Origin: Leptolyngbya sp. KIOST-1
GTDB lineage: Bacteria > Cyanobacteriota > Cyanobacteriia > Phormidesmidales > Phormidesmidaceae
Direction: 5' to 3'
Assembly (NCBI RefSeq): GCF_000763385.1
Contig: NZ_JQFA01000002.1
Location: 3,534,001-3,598,000, forward strand
Length of the DNA stretch: 64,000 nucleotides
The notes beneath the pieces were generated by a model. That model was not told where the DNA came from, ran no database searches, and saw only the letters and a list, made by a program, of their open reading frames with translations. This document shows positions 21,991 to 46,832 of the stretch, one piece after another. The position numbers and the translations under genes were made by a program. The first letter of the stretch is position 1, and each line of letters starts with the position of its first letter.

Positions 21991-24900
21991 CTACAGTCCC
22001 GCGCAGAGGCGGCGATCGGCTTCGTCAACCTCGCTGTTGGTGCGCAGATAGTTGCTCAGCCAGGCGCAGCCATGACTGAGAGGATCGAGGCTCAAGATGG
22101 ATGGCATCGCCCAAAGTACCAGGGTTTCATCGTCGCCTACCGAGGCCAGCCTGGAGCCATTGCCGCTAAACGCAACGCTGCGTACCCCAGAGTTGTGCTG
22201 ATGCAGCGTCGTGATCAGGGCATCGTCTGGCTGGGCGAGGGGTTGCCCCGGACAGCCACTGCCACCCAGGCACTGGAGGCTCCAGAGTTTCACGGTTTCG
22301 TCGATGCTGGCGGTGGCCAGCAGGCGGTTGTCCGGACTGAAGGCTACCCCCCAGACCGCCGCCCGGTGACCTGACAGAGTGTGCAGCAGGGTGCCGTCGG
22401 ATTGCCACAGGCGAGCCCTATTGTCCCCGCTGCCGGTGGCAATCCACTGTCCGTCGGGGCTATAGGCCACTCGCCATACCGTTGAACCGTGCTCAAGGGT
22501 GTGCAGTAGTTTGCCAGTGGGGCTCCAGAGCTTGAGGGTGCCGTCGTTGCTGGCGGTGGCGAACTGCCTGCCGTCTGGGCTGTAGGCCACATCCCAGATC
22601 GGGGCGGCTGCACCCTGCCAGCGCTGGAGCAGGGTGCCATCGGCCCGCCGCCGGTAAATCTGCCCGGTGACGCTAGCCGCCACCAGCGTTTGGCCATCGG
22701 GATGCCAGGCTGCCCCCAACAGGGCGGCATCGTGGCCGTCGATCGCCTGCAGCAGGTTGCCCTCAAAGTCCCAGAGGTGGATGGTTGTGTCTTCGCTGGT
22801 GGAGGTCAACCAGGGCTGGCGCGGGTGTCGGACCAGGTTGGTCACGCCGGCCTGGTGGCCGACTAGAGTGGTTGTTGTAGCTGTATCGGGGGCGATCAGC
22901 CTGACAATTTGATCGCTGCCAGCCGTGGCCAGCCGCTGCCCATCGGGGCTAAACACCGCCCCCAGGGCCAGGTTGCTCAGCCCCTGAAGCTTTTGGTGGA
23001 AGGGATTTTGGGCCTGCCAGAGCAGCACCTGATTGTCGGCCCCAGCGGAGGCAATGGTGGTGCCGTCAGGGCTGTAGGCCACACCCCAGACGGCAGCACT
23101 GTGGCCCTCCAGGGTGGTCAGCAGGGTGCCGCTGACGCTCCAGAGAGCCAGGGTTTTGTCCCAACTGGCGGACACCAATTCCTGCCCGTCGGGGCTGAAG
23201 GCAAGATCTTTGACCGGAGCCTGGTGGTGAACCAGGGTACCCAGCAGATTGCCCGCCGAGTCCCAGAGCTTAATGGTTTTGTCGATGCTGCCGCTGGCCA
23301 GGCGATCGCCCTGGGGACTAAAGGCCAGGGTGTGCACTGGAGCTTCATGGTCGGTCAGGGTAGTGCGGTATTGCCCGGACTGCCAGAGGGAGATTGTTGA
23401 GTTGTTGCCGCCCAAGGCGATCGTGTTGCCGTCGGGGCTGAAGGCCACCGCTCGCAGGCCGGTCACCTCCCCCGGATGCTCCAGGTACTGGACGTTGCCG
23501 GTAGCCAAATCGAAGATTTCAGCCCGGCTACCGTTGCCCCCGGCCAGCAGCCGTTGACCGTCGGGGCTGAAGGCCAGTCCCCAAGTTGAAGCCATCCCCG
23601 TGGGCAGAGTGCGCTCCAGTTCTCCGGCAGTCGTCCACAGGTAAATGGTGCCATCGTCGCCAGCGGAGGCCAGGCGGCGACCGTCGGGGCTGTAGCGAAG
23701 GGCCCGAATGGTGGCCTGATGGCCCTTGAGGGTCTTGATCAGAGTGCCGTCGAGCTGCCAGAGGTGAATGGTGGCATCGACCCCGGCGGTGGCCAGTTGT
23801 CCAGCCTGGTCTGGGTTGGGGTTGAAACTGGCGGCCAGCACCGCTGCCCGGTGACCGCTGAGGCGATTGTTTTGGTGAATGCCCAGCACGATGCGCTCCA
23901 AAATAGCGTCGGCCTGGGCCTGCAAGGCGGGGTTACGGGTTGGTATCTGCCGCAGCCGCTGCTGGCCTCGCACAGCCTCCAACAGCGCCTCAAAGGACCG
24001 CCGAGAGGATTGCAGCGCCTCGGCACTGCGCAGAATGGCATAGGCCTCGTTTTGGCTGGCCTGGAGGTACTGGCGACGGGCCACAAAGCCCAGCCCGATG
24101 GCCGTCACCAGGGCGATCGTTACGGCCCCCAACAGCAGCCGCTGCCGCTCCAGATGCCGCTGCTGCTCCAGGCGTTGCCGGTGCTCTACCGTCAGCCGCG
24201 CCTCCACCTCGGCCAGGCGATCGGCCTCGACCCGGGCCAGCGCCTCCCGCTGGTCAAGGGCCTGGCTGGCGGCCAAAAATCGATAGTCGAGGGGGCTAAG
24301 GCGCTGGTGCTCCGCCCAGCTCAGGGTTTCTTGCAGGGCCTGACCCCGCAGCAGTCGCGACTGATCGGTACAGTCCGAGGCTACCCAGGCATTGAGGGGA
24401 GCAGCGTAGGGCCGCAGATCGTTGAGCTGCTGCTGGACCCAGGCGGTGCTAAAAACAGCCTGGTAGATTGGATTTTTAACCTGCAGGTAGCCGCCTCGGC
24501 GCTCCACCAGGCCGACCAACAGCAGTTCGGCCTGCTCGGGGGAAGCGCTGACCGCCACCTTCCCGTGGTCGAGCACCTGCTGGTAGAGCCCCAGCCGCTG
24601 GCCCAGGCGCTGGGGTTGGTGCCAGAGGCGATCGCGGATGGTTTTGAGGTGCTCCGGCTGGTCGTGGAGTTCCCAGTTCTCGATCAGGTATCTCTGCACC
24701 AGCCGATCAACCCAGTCCGCCACGGAGCCTTGGCCTAGGGCCGGGGCGTGGCTGACAATCAGGTGGCACAGCTTTTGGGTCAGGAAGGGTTGCCCACCCG
24801 TCCAGTGCAGCACCCGCCCCAGCACCGGCTGAGGGTCGCTCACCCAGGGCTGAAGGGATGCCGCCAGGGGCTGGGCCTCCGCCAGGGTAAACCCCTCCAA

Positions 24901-25521
24901 CCCAATGGCCTGGCCAATGTTGAAGGGGGTGCGGACCCTGTCGGCGATCAGATCACTGGGGGTGGTGACCCCAAACAGGGCAAAGGTCAGCCGTTGGTAA
25001 GCAGGGTTGTCCGCCCGGCGGTTGAAGCAGGTGCGGATCAGGGCAAAAAAGTCGTCGGTGGGAAAGGCCAACGCCAGCAGGCTGTCGATCTCATCGATAA
25101 AGATGACCAGAGGCGCCGTCAGGCTGGGCAGCACCACCCGATCGATCAGGTCGGCCAGGCGAGCGACCGGGGGCAGGTGGGTGTGGTCGCGCCACCACTG
25201 GCTGAGGGCAAAGGTCAGGGGCCGCCCCCGCACCAGGTACGCTGCGATCGCGGCATACCACTGCTCCAGCGTGATGTGCTGGCTGCCGATCGCGGTCAGG
25301 TCGATCGCTACGCTGTGGACGCCCAGCTGGTCGAGCGCCGCCATCGTATGCACCCGCAGGCTGGATTTACCCATCTGCCGGGCGTTGAACACGTAGCAAA
25401 ACTGACCGTCTAGCAACCGCTGCTGGAGGAGGGTATCGGCCTGCCGCTTAACGTAGGTGGGGGCAGTCGGCGGTAGACATCCACCCACCTGGTAGGGCGA
25501 CTGGATGGGTCGGGTTAGCAC
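21991..25521 (-). CDS. AAA-like ATPase / 14-repeat WD40 membrane protein
   Basis: About 1176 residues from GTG 25521, which overlaps the upstream TAA by 7 bp. Domains: an AAA-like (AAA_35-type) NTPase with Walker A FNARQMGKSS (45-54) and Walker B PLVIFIDEIDSL (137-148), a coiled coil, a TM helix (about 463-485, LLLGAVTIALVTAIGLGFVA), then 14 WD40 units from about 548 to 1150 of the form LAFSPDGxxLASAGxDxTIxLW, enough for two seven-bladed propellers. The ATPase lies N-terminal of the single TM. Such STAND-like cyanobacterial proteins are thought to act as signal-sensing scaffolds. The ligand and output are unknown. It is coupled to the HTH-AAA gene upstream. Confidence 0.88.
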   Translation of the reverse strand: MLTRPIQSPYQVGGCLPPTAPTYVKRQADTLLQQRLLDGQFCYVFNARQMGKSSLRVHTMAALDQLGVHSVAIDLTAIGSQHITLEQWYAAIAAYLVRGRPLTFALSQWWRDHTHLPPVARLADLIDRVVLPSLTAPLVIFIDEIDSLLALAFPTDDFFALIRTCFNRRADNPAYQRLTFALFGVTTPSDLIADRVRTPFNIGQAIGLEGFTLAEAQPLAASLQPWVSDPQPVLGRVLHWTGGQPFLTQKLCHLIVSHAPALGQGSVADWVDRLVQRYLIENWELHDQPEHLKTIRDRLWHQPQRLGQRLGLYQQVLDHGKVAVSASPEQAELLLVGLVERRGGYLQVKNPIYQAVFSTAWVQQQLNDLRPYAAPLNAWVASDCTDQSRLLRGQALQETLSWAEHQRLSPLDYRFLAASQALDQREALARVEADRLAEVEARLTVEHRQRLEQQRHLERQRLLLGAVTIALVTAIGLGFVARRQYLQASQNEAYAILRSAEALQSSRRSFEALLEAVRGQQRLRQIPTRNPALQAQADAILERIVLGIHQNNRLSGHRAAVLAASFNPNPDQAGQLATAGVDATIHLWQLDGTLIKTLKGHQATIRALRYSPDGRRLASAGDDGTIYLWTTAGELERTLPTGMASTWGLAFSPDGQRLLAGGNGSRAEIFDLATGNVQYLEHPGEVTGLRAVAFSPDGNTIALGGNNSTISLWQSGQYRTTLTDHEAPVHTLAFSPQGDRLASGSIDKTIKLWDSAGNLLGTLVHHQAPVKDLAFSPDGQELVSASWDKTLALWSVSGTLLTTLEGHSAAVWGVAYSPDGTTIASAGADNQVLLWQAQNPFHQKLQGLSNLALGAVFSPDGQRLATAGSDQIVRLIAPDTATTTTLVGHQAGVTNLVRHPRQPWLTSTSEDTTIHLWDFEGNLLQAIDGHDAALLGAAWHPDGQTLVAASVTGQIYRRRADGTLLQRWQGAAAPIWDVAYSPDGRQFATASNDGTLKLWSPTGKLLHTLEHGSTVWRVAYSPDGQWIATGSGDNRARLWQSDGTLLHTLSGHRAAVWGVAFSPDNRLLATASIDETVKLWSLQCLGGSGCPGQPLAQPDDALITTLHQHNSGVRSVAFSGNGSRLASVGDDETLVLWAMPSILSLDPLSHGCAWLSNYLRTNSEVDEADRRLCAGL

Positions 25522-26855
25522 TGATTCTCCAGCAGACTGGCAAAATACTGGCGGTACAGCTGGCAACTGGCGATCGCCAGCTGTTGCCTAAAGCGTACCA
25601 GACCCAGCCCCTGGAGTCGAAAGGATAGCTGAGGCGGGAGCTTGATCCCCTCTGGGCTGGCCGCTACCTGAGCCATGGCCTGGCGGAGAGCGGGTTCGGC
25701 TTCGAGGATTTCTAGCTGGCGGCGGAGATGGCCGCTGTAGATGCCGTCGTAGGCTGTGACCTGCTCGGCAATGGCGCTCAACGGCTGCTGCTGCCCCAGG
25801 TAAAACAGGCTGAGCTGGGTCAGGTAGGGGTGTCCCCCCACCAGATCGACCAGCCGCTGCAGGTCGTCGTCGCCCAGGGCCAGGCCGTAGCGCAGGGCCA
25901 GTTCCTGCACCTGGTCGAGGGTAAAGGGAGGGAGCTCAATTGAAACCCCAACATTAAAGGGGGACTGGTGAATGCTAAGGGGCATCCAGGCTTCGGTCGA
26001 ATAGGCCAACACCAGCCGCAGGTAGGGCCAGAGGTTTTGCTCGGTGCCATAGCGGCCCTGCTCGTACCAGGCCCGCAGCATACCCAGAAAGTCGGTGGCC
26101 ACACTATCGTAGGTAAATAGCTCATCCAGGTCATCGATCACCAGCAGCAGGGGCTGTTCTGAAGCCGGCAAGAGATAGGTTTCAAAATAGTCCGTGCAGC
26201 TGTAAATGCTGCCAAACACCCCGTCCCACCGCTGGTCAAGCTGGTTGGGGAGATCCAGGCTGCGGGCCACCACCGCACAGAACCAGCGCAGGGTCTGGTC
26301 GAGATCGCCCAGGCAGCGGCGGTCGATGGCCCGCAGACTGACCACCACCAGCCGCAGGCCATAGTCCTGGGCATGGCCCAGCATCAGGTTGAGTAGGGAG
26401 GTTTTGCCAAACTGACGCGGGGCCTTGAGACGCACCATCGCCCCCGCTGCCAGTATTTCCTGGGTGCTGCCAGTTTCGATGCCGGGACGATGAATGTAGA
26501 AGGGCGAATCCTGGGGTAGGGGACCGTTGAGGGGGCTACGCTGGACGGTTTGGGGTGGGTCGAGTCGCTGAGTATCTTCAGGCAGCAGGTAGTCATCGGC
26601 GGTTAGCCCCAGGCTAAAGGCGGCGAAGTAGGTATCCAATGTGGTCAAGTCCACGGGCTTCTGCCGTCGTCGGGCCTTGACCAGGGTGTTGGCGCTCAGT
26701 CCAGTAATGGCACACAGCTGATCGAGGGTGTAGGGGTTGCCGCCGTTTTGTAGGGCCGACAGCTGCTGCTCAGCGGCGCGCAGTCGCTGCCAGCCCTGGG
26801 AGCTGAGCACAACGCCCCGCTTGCGGCGATCGCTTGAGTTCATAGCGTGAATCAT
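25515..26855 (-). CDS. HTH-like / AAA-like ATPase domain protein
   Basis: A 446-residue protein. Residues about 14-90 form a helical, HTH-like module (GVVLSSQGWQRL, YTLDQLCAITGLSANTLVKARRRQ, LDTYFAAFSL) that cyanobacteria often fuse to AAA, NB-ARC or pentapeptide proteins. The AAA_35-type NTPase has Walker A LKAPRQFGKTS (143-153) and Walker B LLLVIDDLDELF (236-247), and a sensor-like GGHPYLTQL. The C-terminus resembles a winged helix (LRLQGLGLVRF-like). The stop codon overlaps the start of the WD40 gene, implying 1:1 translation and probably a complex. A second ATG lies 12 bp downstream of the chosen start. Confidence 0.83.
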   Translation of the reverse strand: MIHAMNSSDRRKRGVVLSSQGWQRLRAAEQQLSALQNGGNPYTLDQLCAITGLSANTLVKARRRQKPVDLTTLDTYFAAFSLGLTADDYLLPEDTQRLDPPQTVQRSPLNGPLPQDSPFYIHRPGIETGSTQEILAAGAMVRLKAPRQFGKTSLLNLMLGHAQDYGLRLVVVSLRAIDRRCLGDLDQTLRWFCAVVARSLDLPNQLDQRWDGVFGSIYSCTDYFETYLLPASEQPLLLVIDDLDELFTYDSVATDFLGMLRAWYEQGRYGTEQNLWPYLRLVLAYSTEAWMPLSIHQSPFNVGVSIELPPFTLDQVQELALRYGLALGDDDLQRLVDLVGGHPYLTQLSLFYLGQQQPLSAIAEQVTAYDGIYSGHLRRQLEILEAEPALRQAMAQVAASPEGIKLPPQLSFRLQGLGLVRFRQQLAIASCQLYRQYFASLLENQC

Positions 26856-26920
26856 TCGTCACCCGGACATGGTTGAGTACCTAGCTTGAGCGTCGGCGAT
26901 CGCCCCACAGCGACTGGCCC

Positions 26921-27049
26921 TAGGGCGTGTCATCAATTGTGGCCAAAGCGCCTGTATACCAGGCTTTGCCACGCCCGACCCAAAAACCAGGCTAGGGACT
27001 GTAACCCTTGGTTTGTAGGTATTCAGCAGCTGATTGATGACAGCTCCTA
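26921..27049. mobile_element. MITE-like element, copy A (129 bp)
   Basis: The left end TAGGGCGTGTCATCAATT (26921-26938) matches the reverse complement of the right end (TAGGAGCTGTCATCAATC, 27032-27049) at 14 of 18 positions. The element is 129 bp, has no coding capacity, and begins and ends with TA. It matches copy B at 46704-46832 over its whole length, including TTTGCCACGCCCGACCCAAA inside. It lies between the HTH-AAA gene and the receiver gene. Confidence 0.8.
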
Positions 27050-35614: not shown

Positions 35615-36637
35615 CTAATCTGCGTAGGCAGACAGCTGCCGGAACTGGTAAGTTGCCAGGCCATAGGCAAAGGCTGCGCCGCCGTAAAGAAAGTAGAACC
35701 AGTGCCAGGGAATTACCCGGAGGGCAAACCAGGCCCCGCGCTTGTGCCAAAAGAAGCGGTAAACCCGCTGGTTAACCACCAAAAGTCCGATCATGGTGGC
35801 GATCGCAACGATCCACAGGAAAGGATTGACCCATCCGCCCACCAGGCAGCCCAAGGCCAGCCAGCTGAGCACAACGCTTAGCTTGTTGGTACGGTCTAGA
35901 TTGAGATCATTCATCGGTTGACCCTGGCTAAGAATTAACTCCGTCCAGGGTAGCGCTCGGTAAAAAATCTCGGCCCGTAGCAGTGAAACGGGCTGCCAGC
36001 ACTTCAGGTGCTTGACCTGAATATGTTTGCACAGGCGAATGGTATATCCAGCCCGCCTGAGCCGATAGCCCAACTCAATGTCCTCCACGCAGGGCTTCAG
36101 GTAGCGCTCGTCGAACCCTCCCACCGCTCTAAAGGCATCGGCTCGCACAGCCCCGCAGGCTCCCCAGAAGGTTGACGCTTTTTCGGAGGAGATCTGGTGG
36201 GTGTAGTGGTGAAACAGATTTTTGTACTGGGACAGAAAGTTGGGTGCCCCCGGCTGGTCGTCGTAGGAGCCAATCAGCGCGGCCAGGTTGATATCCTGCT
36301 GAAACGCCTTTTCAACGCCGAGAATAGTGTCGCAACCGACCGTCACATCTGCGTCAATAAAAAACAGGATTTCTCCTCGGGCTAGTCTGGCCCCCTGGTT
36401 TCGGGCACGGGCAGGGCCTCCGGCTGAATCGTAGCGAAAGACCGTTGCCCCAGACTCCTTAGCCACCTGCCAGGAGCCGTCGGTATCGCCATCGGCCACC
36501 ACGATGACCTCATCGGGCAACCGGCTCGACTGCTTCAGGCTGTCGAGGCAGAGGCGGAAGCTCTCGCCACCGTTGTAAACAGGAATAATGACAGAAATAT
36601 TGAGCCGTTCTGATGCATCACCTGGCATGGAATTCAT
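35615..36637 (-). CDS. Family 2 glycosyltransferase with C-terminal membrane helices
   Basis: A 340-residue GT2 protein, first gene of the minus-strand run. ISVIIPVYNGGESFRLCLDSL and VIVVADGDTDGSW bind the nucleotide sugar, FFIDADVTVGCD carries the DAD site, and CVEDIELGYRLRRAGY is the acceptor-side ED motif. Three hydrophobic stretches follow residue about 255. It is preceded by a 514-bp promoter-containing gap and followed 62 bp later by the flavoprotein gene. Confidence 0.88.
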   Translation of the reverse strand: MNSMPGDASERLNISVIIPVYNGGESFRLCLDSLKQSSRLPDEVIVVADGDTDGSWQVAKESGATVFRYDSAGGPARARNQGARLARGEILFFIDADVTVGCDTILGVEKAFQQDINLAALIGSYDDQPGAPNFLSQYKNLFHHYTHQISSEKASTFWGACGAVRADAFRAVGGFDERYLKPCVEDIELGYRLRRAGYTIRLCKHIQVKHLKCWQPVSLLRAEIFYRALPWTELILSQGQPMNDLNLDRTNKLSVVLSWLALGCLVGGWVNPFLWIVAIATMIGLLVVNQRVYRFFWHKRGAWFALRVIPWHWFYFLYGGAAFAYGLATYQFRQLSAYAD

Positions 36638-37151
36638 TGAATCTACGCTTCCTAGAAATACTTATATGCCTGACGGAAAAGAGTTGGTAGTGCAGGATAC
36701 TGGTGCACCAAACCTTTCCCAATAGAAGAAGCTCCTAGAACGCAGCAACTGATTCAGTACTTTTAGGACTTAAATACAATATCTGCAAATCACCCTTCAG
36801 CAAGGTCTTTCGGCCCGAAAAAGCGCTATATATCAGGGAAACTAACATGTCTGTTTTAACCGCATCATGAAATTTCCCTTATCTTTACGATTCCTTTACA
36901 ATAGCTTCTCCGCTGAAACTTTACTCAAAATCTATCTTGAGGGGGATGCTTAAAAGGGGTAGTTTTTGTTTGTGCGCGGGTTGCGTAAATCAATCTGCCG
37001 AACTCAGTAGCCTTCGGTAAAGTCTTGGGATGATTGTGCCAGTAACCACAAGGGTTAGTTGCCATGGGCACCTCAGGCCCACTCTCCCGCTAGGGTTGTG
37101 TCGCAACCAAAACCTGGTTAGCCTGAGGATAATTCTGACTTTAGATCTGCC
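36638..37151. promoter_or_regulatory. AT-rich divergent region, polysaccharide run / TMEM14 copy 1
   Basis: 514 bp between the first GT2 gene (minus) and TMEM14 copy 1 (plus), clearly richer in A/T than the surroundings. It must contain the promoter for the seven-gene run. No boxes are assigned with confidence, and no ORF is supported. Confidence 0.45.
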
Positions 37152-37475
37152 ATGCCTACTGGAGCCCTGTACGCGATCGCCTACGCCGCGCTCTCTGCGA
37201 TCGGTGGCCTGATTGGCTATGCCCAGGCCCGTAGCCAGGTGTCCTTAGTTAGTGGACTGGTCAGCGCCACGCTGCTGCTGGTGAGGGCGTGGCTGTGGCA
37301 GGCCGGTTCCGCTGGCGGTGCCGGTATGGCCATGGGCGTAACCGCCGCGCTGGTGATCATCTTCATTCGTCGCTGGATGGAAACTCGCAAGGCCATGCCC
37401 GCCATCGTTATGATTGTGGCGGGTGTGCTAGCGTTTATTGGCATGGGCCTATCGCTGGTTGGCGCACAGCAGTAG
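37152..37475 (+). CDS. TMEM14 family membrane protein, copy 1 (Gly45Arg variant)
   Basis: A 107-residue, four-helix TMEM14 protein. It is nearly identical to the copy at 41503-41826, differing at residues 33 (Val/Ile), 45 (Arg/Gly) and 93 (Glu/Gln). Arg45 falls inside the second hydrophobic helix (SATLLLVRAWLW), where copy 2 and the family have Gly, so this copy may be impaired. Homology between the two loci starts at the start codon and continues past the stop for about 260 bp; the upstream sequences differ. TMEM14-type proteins in plants (FAX) export fatty acids from plastids; a lipid-export role here is inference. Confidence 0.8.
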   Translation: MPTGALYAIAYAALSAIGGLIGYAQARSQVSLVSGLVSATLLLVRAWLWQAGSAGGAGMAMGVTAALVIIFIRRWMETRKAMPAIVMIVAGVLAFIGMGLSLVGAQQ

Positions 37476-37587
37476 GTCGTGAGTCAATCGGGCCATAGCT
37501 GGCTGTGCCGAGCCGGAACAGACCAGGCGGTTCTGACAATCTATAGCCCAGCTTTAAAGAGCCAACCTCTGCCAGGTTGAGAGAACA

Positions 37588-37735
37588 TTAAGGAGAGTTT
37601 GTGGATTGTCTGGAAGTTGGGGAACCTGACGGCGAGGATGTCTGTCTGCACTAAAGCTTGAGCCGAAATATAGTGATGGCTGCACCTTCTGGTTGGTGGT
37701 CAAAGCGCCAGAGTGCGGCGGCTAGAGGTGCAACC
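37588..37735 (-). pseudogene. Remnant of the SLH lipoprotein gene 3' end
   Basis: About 150 bp matching the last roughly 45 codons of the SLH lipoprotein gene at 41939, including the TAA at 37588-37590 and the final codons (QSTNS). Sequence such as CTTGAGCCGAAATA still matches CTTGAGCTGAAATA in the intact gene. It then diverges with small indels, and no 5' part is present. It is a by-product of the segmental duplication. Confidence 0.7.
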
Positions 37736-38137
37736 GCAGGCCCTACACAACCCCTATAAAATTGCCAATGGTCAGCGATGTATGGTTGAAGAAGAAGGTG
37801 CTCGCCGGGAATGCAAATCCAAAAAGATGCGATCGCTATAGCCCAGCCTACCCCCCCACGGTTCCAGAGTGTGCCCGCAGGGGTTGCTGCGGCAGATCAA
37901 TCAACTGTGTAACCTGGCAAATAGCGTTTCCAAGCATAGACAGCAGTAATGTCTGGAAAATTGGGAACAGCTCCAATCACTGCTCTCTGGGTAACAGCAG
38001 CAGTAACCTCTGACTGTATACCCCTGAAACTGCATGCTCTGCTAGATACAGGCCGACCATCAGCTTCCATTTCCATATTTGAAAATAAGGGAGTTGATGC
38101 TAACAAGCAAAAAATACTGTAGGCGAAAAATTAGGAG
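37736..38137. other. Left end of the AT-rich insert, non-coding
   Basis: About 400 bp between the repeat and the flippase gene end. Short frames on both strands have no family resemblance. Nothing else was recognised. Confidence 0.4.
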
Positions 38138-39604
38138 CTAGGATTTTCCATGCCTGGACATAAGCAACTTCCTCAATCCCCATAGTTCATAAAAAAGATG
38201 ACGCGTAAATATAAAGAGCATTGCTATGTAGAGTAAACCTCCCAGCATGGTAGAGATAATTATAACCCAATGGGATTCTACCAAACTTGACAAGAAGCTT
38301 TTGAACATAACAATGACCACCAGCATTGCAATAGAGTAAGCTAACGGAGCCATTAACCGATTTAAATAGTCCAGGAAGGTGACTTTTAAAAACTTTTTGA
38401 GCATCCAAATGCTGACAGGAATGACCAAAAAATCACTGGCTACATAAGCAAGGGCAACTGCTAAAACTCCCCACTTCACCGCCATCCAACAGAAAATAAA
38501 ATTTAAGGTGGAATTTAGGATGTCAAGTTTTACATTTTGGAATGGATGGCCTATCGCAATTAATACAGATTGATTGAGCAGGATGATAAAGTAAATCATG
38601 CCGCCTACCGATAAAATTTGCATTATCGGTATAGACGGATACCACTGCTCTCCAAAAATAGTTAAAACGAGTTCATCCGCTAGAGAGACAACCCCTAAAA
38701 AAAATGGGAAAGCAATTAGACTTGAAAACTGAAGGGCCTTGTAAAAGGCGTTAACAAGTCTTCCTGTGTCTGATTGTAAGCGAGAAAGTGCAGGGAATAT
38801 AACCTGGTTTGGGGTCTGAACCAAAAGCTGAATTAATACTTGAAAAACCCTATAGGCTACTGCATAATAACCAAGAGAAATACTTCCAAGGAAGTAACCA
38901 ATTAAAAGAGTATCTGTATTTTGGTTGAGATAGGTTAAAATGTTTGACGATAAGGCAGGAGCTCCAAAGCTGTAGAGTTCTTTTAGGCGATCTAAAGAGA
39001 ACTTTAGTTTGGGGCGCCAACTGCTGAGGCTCCAAAAGGCTGCAACTCCAACTACTTCAAACGTTATCTGCTGTCCGACCAAGCTCCAAACGCCATAGCC
39101 TTGGAAGGCTAGCGTAACACCTACAACACCACTGACTAAAATACCTATAAGTACTCTAGTTGCAATTTTTTGAAATGCTATCTGCCTCCTCAAAATGGCA
39201 ATGTGAACCATATTGAGAGATTCGAGAAAAGGCAAAATAGAAAAAGCTTGAACAATTGATTTAAGTAGCGGTTCTTGGAAGATAAGAGCGATTGTCGAAG
39301 CGCTAGCTAAGCCAAGAAGAGAGAAAAATAACCCGAGGCAGACTTGAGCCCAAAATGCCGAATCCAAATGTTCGGAGTCAAGATCAGGACGTTGGACGAG
39401 GGCAGCAGTTAAACCCTGGTTGATGGAAATGCTAACAAACGCTAAGAAAGAGTTGGCTAAAGCAACTAGACCAAACGATTCTGGAGCCAGCAATCTGGCC
39501 ATGACTAAAAATATGAGGAGTGAACCCATCTGGCTACTCCAATTCTGAAGAAACGACCAGGCAACCCCCCGAATAGTTTGCTGCTTAATATTCATCCTTA
39601 GCAA
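38138..39604 (-). CDS. Lipopolysaccharide/oligosaccharide flippase (MOP superfamily, Wzx/WzxC-like)
   Basis: A 488-residue polytopic protein. The N-terminal KQQTIRGVAWSFLQNWSSQMGSLLIFLVMARLLAPESFGLVALA is the family opening, followed by GAPALSSNILTYLNQNTDTLLIGYFLGSISLGYYAVAYR and FPALSRLQSD. It is clearly distinct from the flippase at 30451. Base composition is much richer in A/T than the housekeeping genes, supporting acquisition. The start could be TTG 39604 (AAGAG at a normal distance) or ATG 39595. Confidence 0.88.
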   Translation of the reverse strand: MLRMNIKQQTIRGVAWSFLQNWSSQMGSLLIFLVMARLLAPESFGLVALANSFLAFVSISINQGLTAALVQRPDLDSEHLDSAFWAQVCLGLFFSLLGLASASTIALIFQEPLLKSIVQAFSILPFLESLNMVHIAILRRQIAFQKIATRVLIGILVSGVVGVTLAFQGYGVWSLVGQQITFEVVGVAAFWSLSSWRPKLKFSLDRLKELYSFGAPALSSNILTYLNQNTDTLLIGYFLGSISLGYYAVAYRVFQVLIQLLVQTPNQVIFPALSRLQSDTGRLVNAFYKALQFSSLIAFPFFLGVVSLADELVLTIFGEQWYPSIPIMQILSVGGMIYFIILLNQSVLIAIGHPFQNVKLDILNSTLNFIFCWMAVKWGVLAVALAYVASDFLVIPVSIWMLKKFLKVTFLDYLNRLMAPLAYSIAMLVVIVMFKSFLSSLVESHWVIIISTMLGGLLYIAMLFIFTRHLFYELWGLRKLLMSRHGKS

Positions 39605-39871
39605 AACTCTTATTTGTGTTTAGAAATATAAAATTTGGAATGCAGCGTTTGTCCTCTGTAAGGCGTGGTCTGATGAAATTATGGCAACCTTATTTTTAAG
39701 AGGATAATGAACTCGTTTGATATGAGAGTTTTCATGAGCCAAAAACTGGTAATACCAAATCTAATGTGAGGACGATTAGAAAACTTTGGGTTAGAGATCT
39801 TTGGCGGCAAGCCTTGCAGGTGCCGAGTTAAGCGCATCTTCAAAAAATATTGGATAAGGCTAAACTATTCC

Positions 39872-40870
39872 TCAAGCGCTTGTCTTTCTATTATGATTCG
39901 TTGAGGCAGAGTTGTCTTGATCAGGTCCCTTTAGCAAGAATTTTCCTATGCCAGTCTTTGAGTGGAAAAGATGATGTTCAACTTGACAGGTGCTCCATCC
40001 CTGCTTCCGCAAAACTTTTGATGCAAAATATTTTGAAGTATTTTTTCTGTCGATAAATATTTTTTCAAGGGCAGAATCTCTTACTCTTTGAGGATCAGGA
40101 GTATGGTATTTATAATATTCCACTGCTTGAGCAATGGCTTTGGGATTAGATGGGACAATACGGGAATTTTCCGTAGTAAAGTAACGTGCTCTGCCCCCTT
40201 GAGACCTGGTGCTGACTACTGGAATGCCACAGAGCAAGCCTTCTAAGCTAGCCCACATGGCTCCTTCAACTTTTGATAGAGCAAGGATGCAATGAGATTT
40301 TTGCATCAAGCTTGTGATCTCCTGAAGGTCGGATATATAGCGTTTGTTCCAATCTGCATGCTTAACTTTAGGCTCAAACTGCCTCAAGTCATATTCACCC
40401 AGTGAGTTTTCAGGACAAGCGTAAGTTAAGACATAAAGTTTTTTAATGTACTCAGCTAGGTGTAATCGTTTAAAGGCTACAGCTTGAGCCGCATAGAATG
40501 CATCGTAACGACAGTCGCGATCCTCATTTGCTAAGGTGAAAACCTGCTCGTTAATGAACTGACCTTGAGGCATTAATAGTACTGGAATACCTAATGCTCT
40601 GCAGCGCCAAACTTCTTCTAAAGAATTGGCCATGACTATATAGTTCACCCCCATGGCATGCAGACTTCTCCACCTCCTGAAACGAATTTTTGCAATTTCC
40701 CAGTTGAAAAACCACATTAGGCTTTCGAAACACCAATCCCCTGGTTTAAGATGATTTACAAGCCTAGCCATAACATCTTTCCCTTCAAAGCTTGCCTTGA
40801 AAATGTAAACACCAGGCTCGTCAAAAACTTTGTAGATGTGATCAGAGACTAGGCGATGTTGGGCAACCAT
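39872..40870 (-). CDS. Glycosyltransferase-like protein (GT-B, GT4-like)
   Basis: A 332-residue protein. The C-terminal half has a GT-B donor-site look: HCILALSKVEGAMWASLEGLLCGIPVVSTRSQGGRARYF (the E-x7-E-type motif, then the G-P-x-V step), followed by NSRIVPSNPKAIAQAVEYY. The N-terminal acceptor half has no clear family match. Composition is AT-rich like the neighbouring flippase. It lies 267 bp upstream of that gene on the same strand and is probably co-acquired. The sugar specificity is unknown. Confidence 0.72.
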   Translation of the reverse strand: MVAQHRLVSDHIYKVFDEPGVYIFKASFEGKDVMARLVNHLKPGDWCFESLMWFFNWEIAKIRFRRWRSLHAMGVNYIVMANSLEEVWRCRALGIPVLLMPQGQFINEQVFTLANEDRDCRYDAFYAAQAVAFKRLHLAEYIKKLYVLTYACPENSLGEYDLRQFEPKVKHADWNKRYISDLQEITSLMQKSHCILALSKVEGAMWASLEGLLCGIPVVSTRSQGGRARYFTTENSRIVPSNPKAIAQAVEYYKYHTPDPQRVRDSALEKIFIDRKNTSKYFASKVLRKQGWSTCQVEHHLFHSKTGIGKFLLKGPDQDNSASTNHNRKTSA

Positions 40871-41502
40871 AATAATTTGACCTTATTTTATTCCTTGGAA
40901 CGCTCTGCTTGGTTAGGAGTTCTACAGGCTGCAGGATTGTCTGGCCCAGACCTTTGAAGCGTAGTTGAAAAACTGTTCCACATTATAGGGTGGAATAATG
41001 ACTGAGCTGAAACAACCGATCGCGGCCATGTCGGGCAGCACTATGGCCATTGACTTATTACACTGGGCATAAAACTTTTAGAGCGATGACGTTTTTATCC
41101 CTGATTAACCGCAGGAAAGGCCAAGTGTTTAACCCAGAGCTTGATTATTTGAATTGTTGCCAATGCTTGAGATTTTGAAAAGCTCCTAGTAGGAATAGTC
41201 AAAGGTTGACCTAGCAATACTTTATATTATTGATGAAGCTATCATAAATACTTGGTCAAGTCATAAGGATATTTCTGGTCTTTACAGATATTTTATGATC
41301 GAAATTGAAAATTTTTGATAACTGTTCTTGGACAAATTCTAGTGCCAGCGGCTTTAGAGCAGTTAGCGGCATTCCCTAGTCCGTCCTCGGTAATTTATAG
41401 CTAAAGTCATATACAGCTTGAGGTTGGTGGCAGGAAATGCTGTAGGGCGTGGGCAGCAGCAAAAACCTAGCCACTGAAGCAGCTTTTTGTGGTCAGAAGG
41501 CT
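40871..41502. promoter_or_regulatory. AT-rich promoter region at the right end of the insert
   Basis: 632 bp with long A/T runs near 41210-41340 and an inverted repeat TTCCAC-N8-GTGGAA near 40977. It must hold the promoter of the GT-B/flippase pair (minus) and of TMEM14 copy 2 (plus). No coding frame is supported. Confidence 0.4.
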
Positions 41503-41826
41503 ATGCCTACTGGAGCCCTGTACGCGATCGCCTACGCCGCGCTCTCTGCGATCGGTGGCCTGATTGGCTACGCCCAGGCCCGTAGCCAGGTGTCCTTAAT
41601 TAGTGGACTGGTCAGCGCCACGCTGCTGTTGGTGGGAGCGTGGCTGTGGCAGGCCGGTTCCGCTGGCGGTGCCGGTATGGCCATGGGCGTAACCGCCGCG
41701 CTGGTGATCATCTTCATTCGTCGCTGGATGCAAACCCGCAAGGCCATGCCCGCCATCGTTATGATTGTGGCGGGTGTGCTGGCGTTTATTGGCATGGGCC
41801 TATCGCTGGTTGGCGCACAGCAGTAG
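41503..41826 (+). CDS. TMEM14 family membrane protein, copy 2
   Basis: A 107-residue four-helix protein: GALYAIAYAALSAIGGLIGYAQ (4-25), VSLISGLVSATLLLVGAWLW (30-49), then GAGMAMGVTAALVIIFIRRW and AIVMIVAGVLAFIGMGLSLVG. Residue 45 is Gly, as in the family, so this is likely the functional parent of copy 1. It faces the SLH lipoprotein gene 3' end, 112 bp away. Confidence 0.85.
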   Translation: MPTGALYAIAYAALSAIGGLIGYAQARSQVSLISGLVSATLLLVGAWLWQAGSAGGAGMAMGVTAALVIIFIRRWMQTRKAMPAIVMIVAGVLAFIGMGLSLVGAQQ

Positions 41827-42075
41827 GTCGTGAGTCAATCGGGCCATAGCTGGCTGTGCCGAGCCGGAACAGACCAGACGGTTCTGGCAATCTATAGCCC
41901 AGCTTGAAAGAGCCAACCTCTGCAAGGTTGCAAAGAGATTAAAGAGAGTTTGTGGATTGTCCGGAAGTTGGGGAACCTGACGGCGAGGATGTCTGTCTAA
42001 GCAGATCTTGAGCTGAAATACCTTCGGTTTGGTTGCCAAATCGCCAAATGGCGGCGGCGGCTTCAGCCTGGGTAA
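41503..42075. repeat. Right direct repeat bracketing the AT-rich insert
   Basis: Counterpart of 37152-37735, in the same orientation. Here it contains the intact TMEM14 gene and the true 3' end of the SLH lipoprotein gene, so this is the ancestral side. About 3.8 kb of AT-rich DNA separates the two repeats. Confidence 0.85.
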
Positions 42076-42949
42076 CGCTCTGCTGCGGCTGGAACAGTGT
42101 GGTGTAGCCAAAGGCGCGACGAATATTAGAAAAATCGCCGATCTGATGGTCAGCCAGCACGGCCCGCAGTGCCAGGGGTTCAATGGCAGCGGCATCCTGA
42201 AAGCCCCAGGCGGCGGTGACCGCTTCGGTCGTCGCGGTGGGCAGCGTTGTGCGGGAGTCCAGGGGAGCTTTCCATAGCACCAGCGTCTCGCGGGTCAGCG
42301 GGGCGTCGGGACGAAAGGTAACCGCCGTGGCATTGCCGGTCTTGGCGCTGGGGATAATTCCTGCCTCGGCCAGCCCCTGAATGGCGGTGAAGTGGGGGTG
42401 GGACGTCGGTACATCCTGAAAGATGGGGCTAGCGCTGGCGGTGGCGGGGCGAATGCGCTGGGCTGGGACATCCTGATAAAACGCATTGTTGGCCGCAAGC
42501 AGCCATTGGGCAAATTCGCTCCGAGTAATGGGCTGGTTGGGCTCAAAGCCAGCCTGAACGTCAGGGTCGCTGACCTTAGCAGGCTGGGTGGCTTCAACCA
42601 GGCCCAGGGCCAGCCAGTCCTGCACAAAGGGACGCAGATCGTCGGGCACCTCGCGGAGCTGAGCGATGCGGAGAGCACCAGTGCCGCCGGTCGTCTGGGC
42701 GTTGCCGGTGGTGGGGACTGAGGCTGAGCGATCCGGGGGAGGCGTCACGTCGGAATCGGTGGTGGCTGCAGTGTTCGTTTCGGGAATGTCGTCCCCGAAC
42801 ACGGGCCGTTCTTGCAGCTGTGGATCGGCCTCGAGGGACTGTTCTAGGCCGCTGCCCGCACAGCCCGTCACCAGCAGCAGACTGAGTCCAGAGACGATAA
42901 GAGCCGTAGGACGAAACGCAGACAAGGGGCGGCCTCCTGAATGGGACAT
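41939..42949 (-). CDS. SLH domain-containing lipoprotein
   Basis: A 336-residue protein starting at ATG 42949. A signal peptide ends in the lipobox LLLVTGC (Cys about 26), so it is likely lipid-anchored. A Pro/Thr/Asp-rich linker (about 30-80) is followed by S-layer-homology-like repeats: VQDWLALGLVEATQ...FEPNQPITRSEFAQWLLAANN, IFQDVPTSHPHFTAIQGLAEAGIIPS...FRPDAPLTRETLVLW, and a third near FQPQQSVTQAEAAAAIWRFG. SLH repeats bind pyruvylated or secondary cell-wall polymers. It is divergent from a nucleoside hydrolase gene, 88 bp away. Confidence 0.85.
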   Translation of the reverse strand: MSHSGGRPLSAFRPTALIVSGLSLLLVTGCAGSGLEQSLEADPQLQERPVFGDDIPETNTAATTDSDVTPPPDRSASVPTTGNAQTTGGTGALRIAQLREVPDDLRPFVQDWLALGLVEATQPAKVSDPDVQAGFEPNQPITRSEFAQWLLAANNAFYQDVPAQRIRPATASASPIFQDVPTSHPHFTAIQGLAEAGIIPSAKTGNATAVTFRPDAPLTRETLVLWKAPLDSRTTLPTATTEAVTAAWGFQDAAAIEPLALRAVLADHQIGDFSNIRRAFGYTTLFQPQQSVTQAEAAAAIWRFGNQTEGISAQDLLRQTSSPSGSPTSGQSTNSL

Positions 42950-45521: not shown

Positions 45522-46706
45522 ATGGCTCAACCGCTCACCATTGCCCTGCTTACCTACTCGACCAAGCTGCGGGGCAGCGTTGTTCACACGCTGGAACTGG
45601 CCCAGGCGCTGGCTCAGCTCGGTCACGATGTCTGTGTCTACGCCCTCGACAAAGATGGGCAGGGTTTTGAGCGAGACATTGCGGCCAGGGTTGAGCTAAT
45701 TCCCGCCCAGCCGCCTCCCGGTGGGCTGAGTCCCGATCGCGCCATCGACGCCCTGATTCGTCAGCGGATTGGGGAGTTTGTCGATTACTTTCTGGCCCAT
45801 CCAATCGTTTGCGATATCTACCACGCCCAGGACTGTATTGGAGCCAACGCATTGGTGCAGCTGCGGGAGCGGGGACGCGCCACCAATTTGGTCCGCACTG
45901 TCCACCACGTCGAAGATTACCCCAGTCCCTATCTGCACCAGTGTCAGGATCGCTCAATTCGGGATCCTGATCTATGTTTGTGCGTGAGCGATCGCTGGCA
46001 AGCTGCCCTCCGCCACGACTATGGTATCGACGCTCCCAGAGTCCTCAATGGTGTTGACCTGCGGCGGTTTTCCCCCGCTCCCTCAGGCCAGGAGACCGCC
46101 ATCAAGGCCCGCTACGGGCTAACCGGGGCGCCCATTTTCCTCACCGTGGGGGGCATAGAACCGCGCAAGAATTCTCTCCGCCTGCTAGCAGCCTTTGCCC
46201 AGGTGCTGACCACCCATCCCCAGGCCCAGCTGGTGATGGCGGGCGGAGCTACCCTGTTTGACTACGAGCCCTACCGGCAGGAGTTCCTGGGGCTGGCCAA
46301 CCGGCTAGAGCAGCAGCAGGGGCCAATTCTGGGTAAATCGGTCATGCTGCCGGGCGTTATTCCCGATGGGGATCTGCCTGCTCTCTACCGCGCCGCCGAC
46401 GTATTTTGCTTCCCATCCACCAAGGAAGGCTGGGGGCTGGTGGTGCTGGAGGCGATCGCCTCGGGCCTGCCCGTGATCACCGCCGATCAGCCGCCCTTTA
46501 CCGAATTTCTCAGCTCCGACCAGGCGCTGCTGGTGGATCCTAATTCGGCAGCAGCGATCGCCCAGGCGATGGTAGAGAGCCTGAACCCGGCCCTGGCGCA
46601 GAGGCTCGTCGCCTGCAGCCGCACCATTCTAACCCAGTACACCTGGGCACAGTCAGCGCAGCTGCACCTGCAGCACTACCGCCGTCTGCTCAGATCTCCA
46701 GCCTAG
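45522..46706 (+). CDS. Family 4 glycosyltransferase, MSMEG_0565 type
   Basis: A 394-residue GT-B enzyme. IALLTYSTKLRGSVVHTLELAQALAQLGHDV is the characteristic N-terminus of the MSMEG_0565 family. The donor site has LTVGGIEPRKNSLRLLAAFA and CFPSTKEGWGLVVLEAIASGLPVI. In many bacteria this enzyme lies in the Nit1C nitrilase cluster with a radical SAM protein and a flavoprotein; none of those are here. Its TAG stop is the first triplet of MITE copy B, so the insertion defines the present C-terminus. Confidence 0.8.
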   Translation: MAQPLTIALLTYSTKLRGSVVHTLELAQALAQLGHDVCVYALDKDGQGFERDIAARVELIPAQPPPGGLSPDRAIDALIRQRIGEFVDYFLAHPIVCDIYHAQDCIGANALVQLRERGRATNLVRTVHHVEDYPSPYLHQCQDRSIRDPDLCLCVSDRWQAALRHDYGIDAPRVLNGVDLRRFSPAPSGQETAIKARYGLTGAPIFLTVGGIEPRKNSLRLLAAFAQVLTTHPQAQLVMAGGATLFDYEPYRQEFLGLANRLEQQQGPILGKSVMLPGVIPDGDLPALYRAADVFCFPSTKEGWGLVVLEAIASGLPVITADQPPFTEFLSSDQALLVDPNSAAAIAQAMVESLNPALAQRLVACSRTILTQYTWAQSAQLHLQHYRRLLRSPA

Positions 46707-46832
46707 GGCGTGTCATCAATTGTGGTCGAAAGCTCGGTATATCAAGCTTTGCCACGCCCGACCCAAACGACAGGCTAGGGGCTGTAACCCTTAATTTTTG
46801 GGCGTTTGGCAGCTAATTGATGATAGCCCCTA
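46704..46832. mobile_element. MITE-like element, copy B (129 bp)
   Basis: The left end TAGGGCGTGTCATCAATT (46704-46721) and right end (reverse complement TAGGGGCTATCATCAATT, 46815-46832) form imperfect terminal inverted repeats. Its length equals copy A. Its first three bases are the stop codon of the glycosyltransferase gene. No coding capacity. Confidence 0.8.

Follow-up and report, generated by a model that had tools for sequence, protein, structure and literature searches.

Replacement-type flexible genomic islands have constant flanks and, at a single site, a variable content of polysaccharide genes (Lopez-Perez and colleagues, PMC4033161), and the main text of that paper describes exchange through homologous recombination in the flanking genes with raised divergence at the borders. 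PMC3240628 sets out cases in Escherichia coli where linear DNA was circularised and entered by a single crossing-over, with partial duplications of 109-950 bp as the outcome. The locus described here lies in a 64,000-nucleotide stretch of the Leptolyngbya sp. KIOST-1 genome, termed the window, and consists of an AT-rich segment with a polysaccharide flippase and a glycosyltransferase bracketed by direct repeats, each repeat copy holding a complete TMEM14 gene (37152-37475 and 41503-41826). The preferred reading, given a probability of roughly 0.6, takes the segment as the right end of another polysaccharide island, of foreign origin, that was added with its own spacer and TMEM14 anchor through homologous recombination.

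The locus resembles the replacement-type islands in the proposed recombination in flanking genes. Its spacer and SLH tail are diverged around a similar core, as measured between two copies of one genome and not between strains, and it may thereby share their divergent borders. As in those islands, relatives carry differing genes of similar function at the same site. Unlike those islands, a second island end appears to have been added and not swapped, with the right anchor doubled beside a truncated neighbour; the whole cluster has not been replaced, the resident glycosyltransferase end being still present with the new segment beyond it. The stem "duplicat" occurs 0 times in the main text of PMC4033161. 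In the E. coli system, too, foreign DNA lies between copies of part of its homologous target, with a duplicated length of 109-950 bp compared with about 570 bp here, but that system involved a laboratory plasmid and conjugation, whereas the event here is read from sequence only.

Under the preferred reading the incoming DNA would have been a circularised piece with an SLH 3' end, TMEM14, spacer, glycosyltransferase and flippase, and its simplest route of entry beside the resident island would be one crossing-over in the TMEM14-SLH anchor. The product would have the resident spacer and donor SLH tail on the left, and the donor spacer and resident SLH gene on the right, with the core (TMEM14 and the TMEM14-SLH gap) homogenised by gene conversion during the event or later. 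Two predictions of a single crossing-over are seen, a direct repeat of the target and diverged outer edges. We infer the circular intermediate, the assignment of donor and resident parts, a donor that is a genus member or close kin, and the timing; as the donor was not found, the resident and donor parts are not assignable for certain. The features of the locus are as follows.

35615..36637, minus strand: family-2 glycosyltransferase (GT2), right-end gene of the resident polysaccharide island (PF00535)
36638..37148, no strand: left spacer from island to TMEM14, with a conserved genus element (profile from 17 relatives, 100.3 bits at 36820-37141)
37149..37722, plus strand: left repeat copy (self-comparison and whole-genome search)
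37152..37475, plus strand: left TMEM14 copy (PF03647, E 6.5e-20)
37588..37722, minus strand: what is left of a truncated SLH 3' end (aligned with the intact gene and with relatives)
37723..38137, no strand: stretch holding two frame pieces (77 and 81 residues) that have no relatives in 95 other genomes (frame comparison)
38138..39604, minus strand: MOP/Wzx-type polysaccharide flippase, the second of the region (PF13440, Polysacc_synt_3, E 2.8e-87)
39872..40870, minus strand: group-1 (GT4-like) glycosyltransferase (PF13692/PF00534, barely over cut-off)
40871..41499, no strand: right spacer, of which 41234-41499 resembles a diverged genus TMEM14 spacer (profile and window scoring)
41500..42058, plus strand: right repeat copy (self-comparison and whole-genome search)
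41503..41826, plus strand: right TMEM14 copy (PF03647, E 2.7e-20)
41939..42949, minus strand: intact SLH gene from its predicted start (PF00395; single match in 24 of the 25 other genus members)

The direct repeat and its diverged edges

Self-comparison of the window aligns 37149-37722 with 41500-42058 over 574 columns at 91.5% identity, the best part being identical at 495 of 522 positions (95%, one gap). The next-longest self-match within the 64 kb has 132 columns, and a query of 37100-37750 against the whole genome matches solely at the two repeat places. The sequence-only reading had placed direct repeats of about 580 bp around an AT-rich flippase and glycosyltransferase segment, and the repeat is confirmed at this length. 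An assembly artefact fusing the loci of two strains is barely conceivable, the site being inside a 3.84 Mb contig of the 6.32 Mb genome, the glycosyltransferase and the flippase each matching once in the genome, and the two cores carrying distinct changes of their own.

The G+C content (GC), taken in 150-bp steps, stays within 0.31-0.47 between 38.0 and about 41.45 kb, and it is 0.54-0.67 in the right flank (41.5-64 kb, 1-kb windows). The contrast is sharper on the right because the left flank, formed by the resident island at 27-37.5 kb, has a GC of just 0.48-0.60 (1-kb windows). The AT-richness first proposed for 37.7-41.5 kb stands, but its left limit does not: the stretch 37723-37930 is 53% GC, so the AT-rich part begins some 200-300 bp further to the right. 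A profile of GC and codons, proposed earlier as a check, gives third-position GC values of 0.40 for the flippase and 0.38 for the glycosyltransferase, below the other measured genes (0.64-0.82 in 11 of 13, and 0.50-0.52 in the remaining two, both from the resident island).

Within the repeat a closely similar core is flanked by divergent edges. Across the TMEM14 coding sequence 8 of 324 positions are changed (97% identity), with 4 changes among the 108 third positions, and the non-coding TMEM14-SLH gap differs at 3 of 95, whereas the upstream spacers disagree at 30 of the 58 positions aligned and the SLH tails at 8 of 77 and then at 14 of 60 with a further 15 gap columns. The gap can be aligned over most of its length in only 6 of 15 relatives, where the difference is 62%. 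The low-difference core located by scanning comprises 496 columns with 19 differences, against 48 in the 124 columns outside, and 0 of 500 permutations are as strong. The left-right pair is an outlier against 135 other pairs (coding difference 0.027, spacer 0.517, tail 0.233): in the four of those pairs with a coding difference of 0.05 or less, the spacers differ by 0.067-0.183 and the tails by 0.033-0.15, and all pairs with a spacer difference of at least 0.5 have a coding difference of at least 0.15. One relative (L037), being too distant, is omitted from the spacer and divergence comparisons and is included in the base counts and the TMEM14 tree. The edges are thus diverged as between species and the core is alike as within a species, which points to recombination in the core.

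Both TMEM14 copies share the layout found in relatives, in which TMEM14 points away from an island gene on the minus strand and is separated from it by an AT-rich spacer, of 514 and 632 bp for the two copies; the distance between the last island gene and TMEM14 in relatives is roughly half a kilobase. The left spacer is a clear genus version, with its 100.3-bit profile match. The profile has only two matches in the window, and these are the two spacers, the right one being weak (41234-41471, 11.2 bits, E 0.0085, where E values refer to the window, the reversed window and five shuffles) and the best control matches reaching 1.3 and 1.2 bits (E 8.2 and 8.9, both in the same shuffle). The 75 nt ahead of the right TMEM14 ATG have a summed score of 166 over 15 relatives, compared with a best of 103 in 1287 background windows and of -51.5 in 300 shuffles. 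The mean difference to the 15 relatives is 0.40 for the left spacer and 0.446 for the right, and the alignment of the right spacer is better with every one of these relatives than with the left spacer. The difference between the two spacers exceeds either mean, so that a recent duplication of the left copy together with its upstream region is an unlikely source of the right one. By three-branch arithmetic, uncorrected for repeated changes, the split of the two spacers would be roughly as deep as the spread of the genus.

A simple segmental duplication, as originally proposed, is not supported by these spacers. The sequence-only reading is supported by the empty site described below, by the absence of the gene pair from that site in relatives and by the near-identical cores. 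An ancient divergence of the two copies, named beforehand as an outcome that would refute the proposal, is absent from the coding sequences and present in the spacers. A doubtful alternative that nonetheless carries some weight is a tandem duplication within this lineage that took in TMEM14 and the 3' end of SLH, followed by a foreign insertion between the copies and fast decay of the spare spacer and SLH tail. It accounts for coding copies that are sisters at 97% identity (98/98 support in the TMEM14 gene tree), for a TMEM14-SLH gap that is common to both copies at 92 of 95 positions and poorly alignable with relatives, and for a left SLH tail that appears decayed at conserved sites. It is weaker because the adjacent non-coding gap has not decayed: the right spacer would have had to reach 52% difference while the gap and the third positions moved only 3-4%, and that spacer is closer to each of the 15 scored relatives than to its left counterpart.

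The left anchor appears to be the spare one, as it departs from the relatives at conserved sites. Left TMEM14 carries G45R and Q77E where all 16 aligned relatives share the base of the right copy, and the left SLH tail deviates at several sites common to all 15 scored relatives; at 37713 it is the right copy that deviates.

Several observations weigh against addition of a second island end through the anchor. The near-identical core needs an extra conversion step in the single-crossover model, and an island ending in this flippase and glycosyltransferase next to TMEM14 was not found in any genome searched. The left and right spacers are marginally alike (19 of 1000 shuffles equally good), the clear part of the right spacer is 62 bases only and its profile match is weak, and four of the 135 other pairs have a spacer difference as great as the left-right one. 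A fast-evolving, unneeded spacer could look foreign, and the divergence of the left SLH tail may partly be decay and not donor origin. The permutation test covers a coding stretch under selection, though the non-coding gap is equally alike.

The site in relatives

The search for TMEM14 covered 56 further genomes, including 25 of the same genus, and the surrounding stretches of the genus members were compared by DNA and protein. A single TMEM14 adjoins SLH on one contig in 17 of the 25, and a second TMEM14 at the site is seen in none of them. Two further members are left out of the count of intact sites since the contig ends beside TMEM14 (G017) or breaks inside it (G024). The break in the latter, a draft genome, falls between the end of L064 and the start of L065; a repeat is possible there, and so is chance. 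Another member (G006) has a 60% identical TMEM14 on a contig with ftsQ-side genes and no SLH match in the genome. TMEM14 was not matched in the remaining five (G002, G015, G019, G022 and G025). In G002, G015 and G025 only 0.7-0.8 kb separates the ftsQ-side gene from the next window gene with a match, which is SLH, and at their sites (L076, L074 and L078, respectively) neither TMEM14 nor any island gene was matched. Second TMEM14 matches in seven genomes are 37-40% identical and lie on other contigs. The close TMEM14 genes (16 loci) occur in genomes named Nodosilinea, Leptolyngbya, Phormidium, Tildeniella, Shackletoniella or "cyanobacterium", which places the organism in or close to Nodosilinea.

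The insert glycosyltransferase has no match in any of the 25 other genus members, and the flippase relatives in the genus are at most 41% identical, those near the site being 24-25% identical and occupying the position of the resident island's flippase. The comparison for an empty site called for by the sequence-only reading therefore comes out as expected, with one TMEM14 beside SLH in the 17 genomes and the insert pair absent from the site.

On one side of the site, relatives have ftsZ, ftsQ and a small gene; the variable polysaccharide genes come next, and after them the spacer, TMEM14, SLH, a nucleoside hydrolase gene, one more gene and a pair of small shell-type genes, where ftsZ, ftsQ, "nucleoside hydrolase" and "shell-type" are labels that we assigned from the sequence. 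In the window the island extends over about 15 kb. Three loci have no match to any of its genes between the flanks (L028, L037 and L067; genomes G016, G001 and G014), and the GT2 gene of 35615-36637 lies left of TMEM14 in 16 of the 25 genus members, one of which shows its first 74 bases only, at a contig edge. This gene order makes the locus the right border of a polysaccharide island that varies throughout the genus. As the site varies across the genus and the GT2 island end is still present, the new segment is placed as an addition past the right end of the resident island.

Two loci of relatives, L033 (4517-6048) and L098 (6980-8414), have smaller islands that retain fragments of a glycosyltransferase gene, which suggests that islands may be lost through deletion. 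The resident island in the window includes two genes with AAA_35 domains at 21991-26855, one of them fused to a long WD40 array; a partial match to the AAA_35 genes was found in L026 only, among fetched genus stretches that do not all span the whole island. A dispersed repeat of about 130 bp is present at 26919-27049 and 46702-46832 and is an imperfect palindrome by predicted fold. At least 41 further copies, 78-90% identical to it and lying in both orientations, were matched in the genome, where 40 of 205 candidates were scored. Its predicted fold is more stable than that of shuffled sequence whichever strand is taken (z -2.7 to -4.3), and it belongs to no Rfam family at gathering score. It looks like an element of the miniature inverted-repeat transposable element type.

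Genes of the segment and searches for an origin

The match of the flippase to PF13440 spans residues 34-326, and the NCBIfam MOP flippase model aligns with residues 4-476 at 231.7 bits, under its cut-off of 273; the profile covers most of the length, as expected of a Wzx/MOP family member, and the flippase named earlier in the insert is borne out. The glycosyltransferase matches the C-terminal half only of the group-1 models, scoring 28.8 bits with one (cut-off 27) and 27.4 bits with the other (cut-off 26.4), and its "GT-B" label would follow from family membership. The intact SLH gene, a putative lipoprotein gene in the sequence-only reading, occurs at the right copy only; its putative start was set at the ATG that is residue 84 of a long open reading frame reaching 43198, with the stop at 41939. 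The left SLH part was correctly called a truncated remnant, as only about 135 nt of the 3' end is kept there, with insertions of 1 nt and 14 nt.

Between this remnant and the flippase, 37723-38137 contains minus-strand frames of 77 and 81 residues with one stop between them, the second extending into the SLH remnant. As a gene the stretch was rejected: both frame pieces are without a match in 95 other genomes and without a profile match above cut-off. From 37723 on, the sequence lacks a recognisable partner. An illegitimate joint would have this effect, and the observation fits an integration of linear DNA by one-sided homology and such a joint, or a merodiploid born of transformation, either requiring no circular intermediate. 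Transformation-made tandem duplications are described for pneumococcus in PMC3784515, where DNA uptake likewise yields a direct duplication by recombination. Unlike the present case, however, it is resident DNA between pre-existing repeats that is duplicated there, and the pneumococcal duplications depend on those repeats. One-sided-homology events, as treated in PMC3240628, usually delete resident DNA, while here GT2 and the SLH gene are both whole, and integration without a circle is considered unlikely.

The searches for a donor returned distant relatives. The glycosyltransferase protein has a match at E of 0.001 or below in 5 of 95 relatives, all outside the family and the best at 3.1e-4; relatives at E of 1e-8 or below occur in 3 of 385 other genomes of the phylum and are 31-42% identical, and a scan of named genomes gave 6 pattern matches and no relative. 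The flippase has matches in 41 of the 56 other genomes, the best 44% identical. Searched as DNA in the same 56 genomes, one margin of the insert has a 26-base match in one genome and the other margin none, among the candidates scored, which numbered 10 or 11 at most in each genome. Plasmid records gave no match. None of the papers listed in a literature search on islands of this genus names the genus, which is not proof of absence in print.

A mobile-element island was considered as a candidate and rejected. No integrase or transposase domain is present in the two insert genes or six intergenic frame pieces, the six inverted pairs detected are weak with none linking the insert ends, and there is no tRNA in the window. 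No RNA family reaches its Rfam gathering score in 20-48 kb.

These results also bear on a maintained on/off locus, in which recombination between the repeats would be frequent enough for a population to lose and recover its surface-polysaccharide genes. The near-identical core of about 500 columns fits past recombination between the copies, and excision would yield a locus like that of the relatives. However, a recombinase domain is likewise missing from the two genes and six frame pieces, and no inverted repeat pairs the ends of the insert. A single assembled state is seen, and the glycosyltransferase is in no other genus genome, so re-entry would need new DNA. Such a switch is judged very improbable.

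Implications for surface polysaccharides

The locus is most likely a new case of a known type of gene exchange and not a new kind of switch. A second flippase and glycosyltransferase near the resident island suggest a changed or second surface polysaccharide. Loss through recombination between the repeats, as the sequence-only reading proposed, is mechanically possible and would restore the normal locus with a single TMEM14. TMEM14 proteins are akin to the plant fatty-acid exporter FAX1.

A wider proposal, which is speculative and rather unlikely, is that polysaccharide operons of the genus may travel with their own spacer and TMEM14 anchor. A fixed neighbour gene would then serve as a docking site that requires no recombinase, and stacked copies matched by conversion would let whole surface sugars be added or dropped.

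The exchange of surface-polysaccharide islands that lack mobile-element genes has been deduced largely by comparing finished states. With a second island end stacked beside the first and the anchor duplicated, the locus in Leptolyngbya sp. KIOST-1 may capture an intermediate. If this is true, it would show the additive step of such an exchange, together with a clear route, recombination between the anchors, by which either island could be lost.

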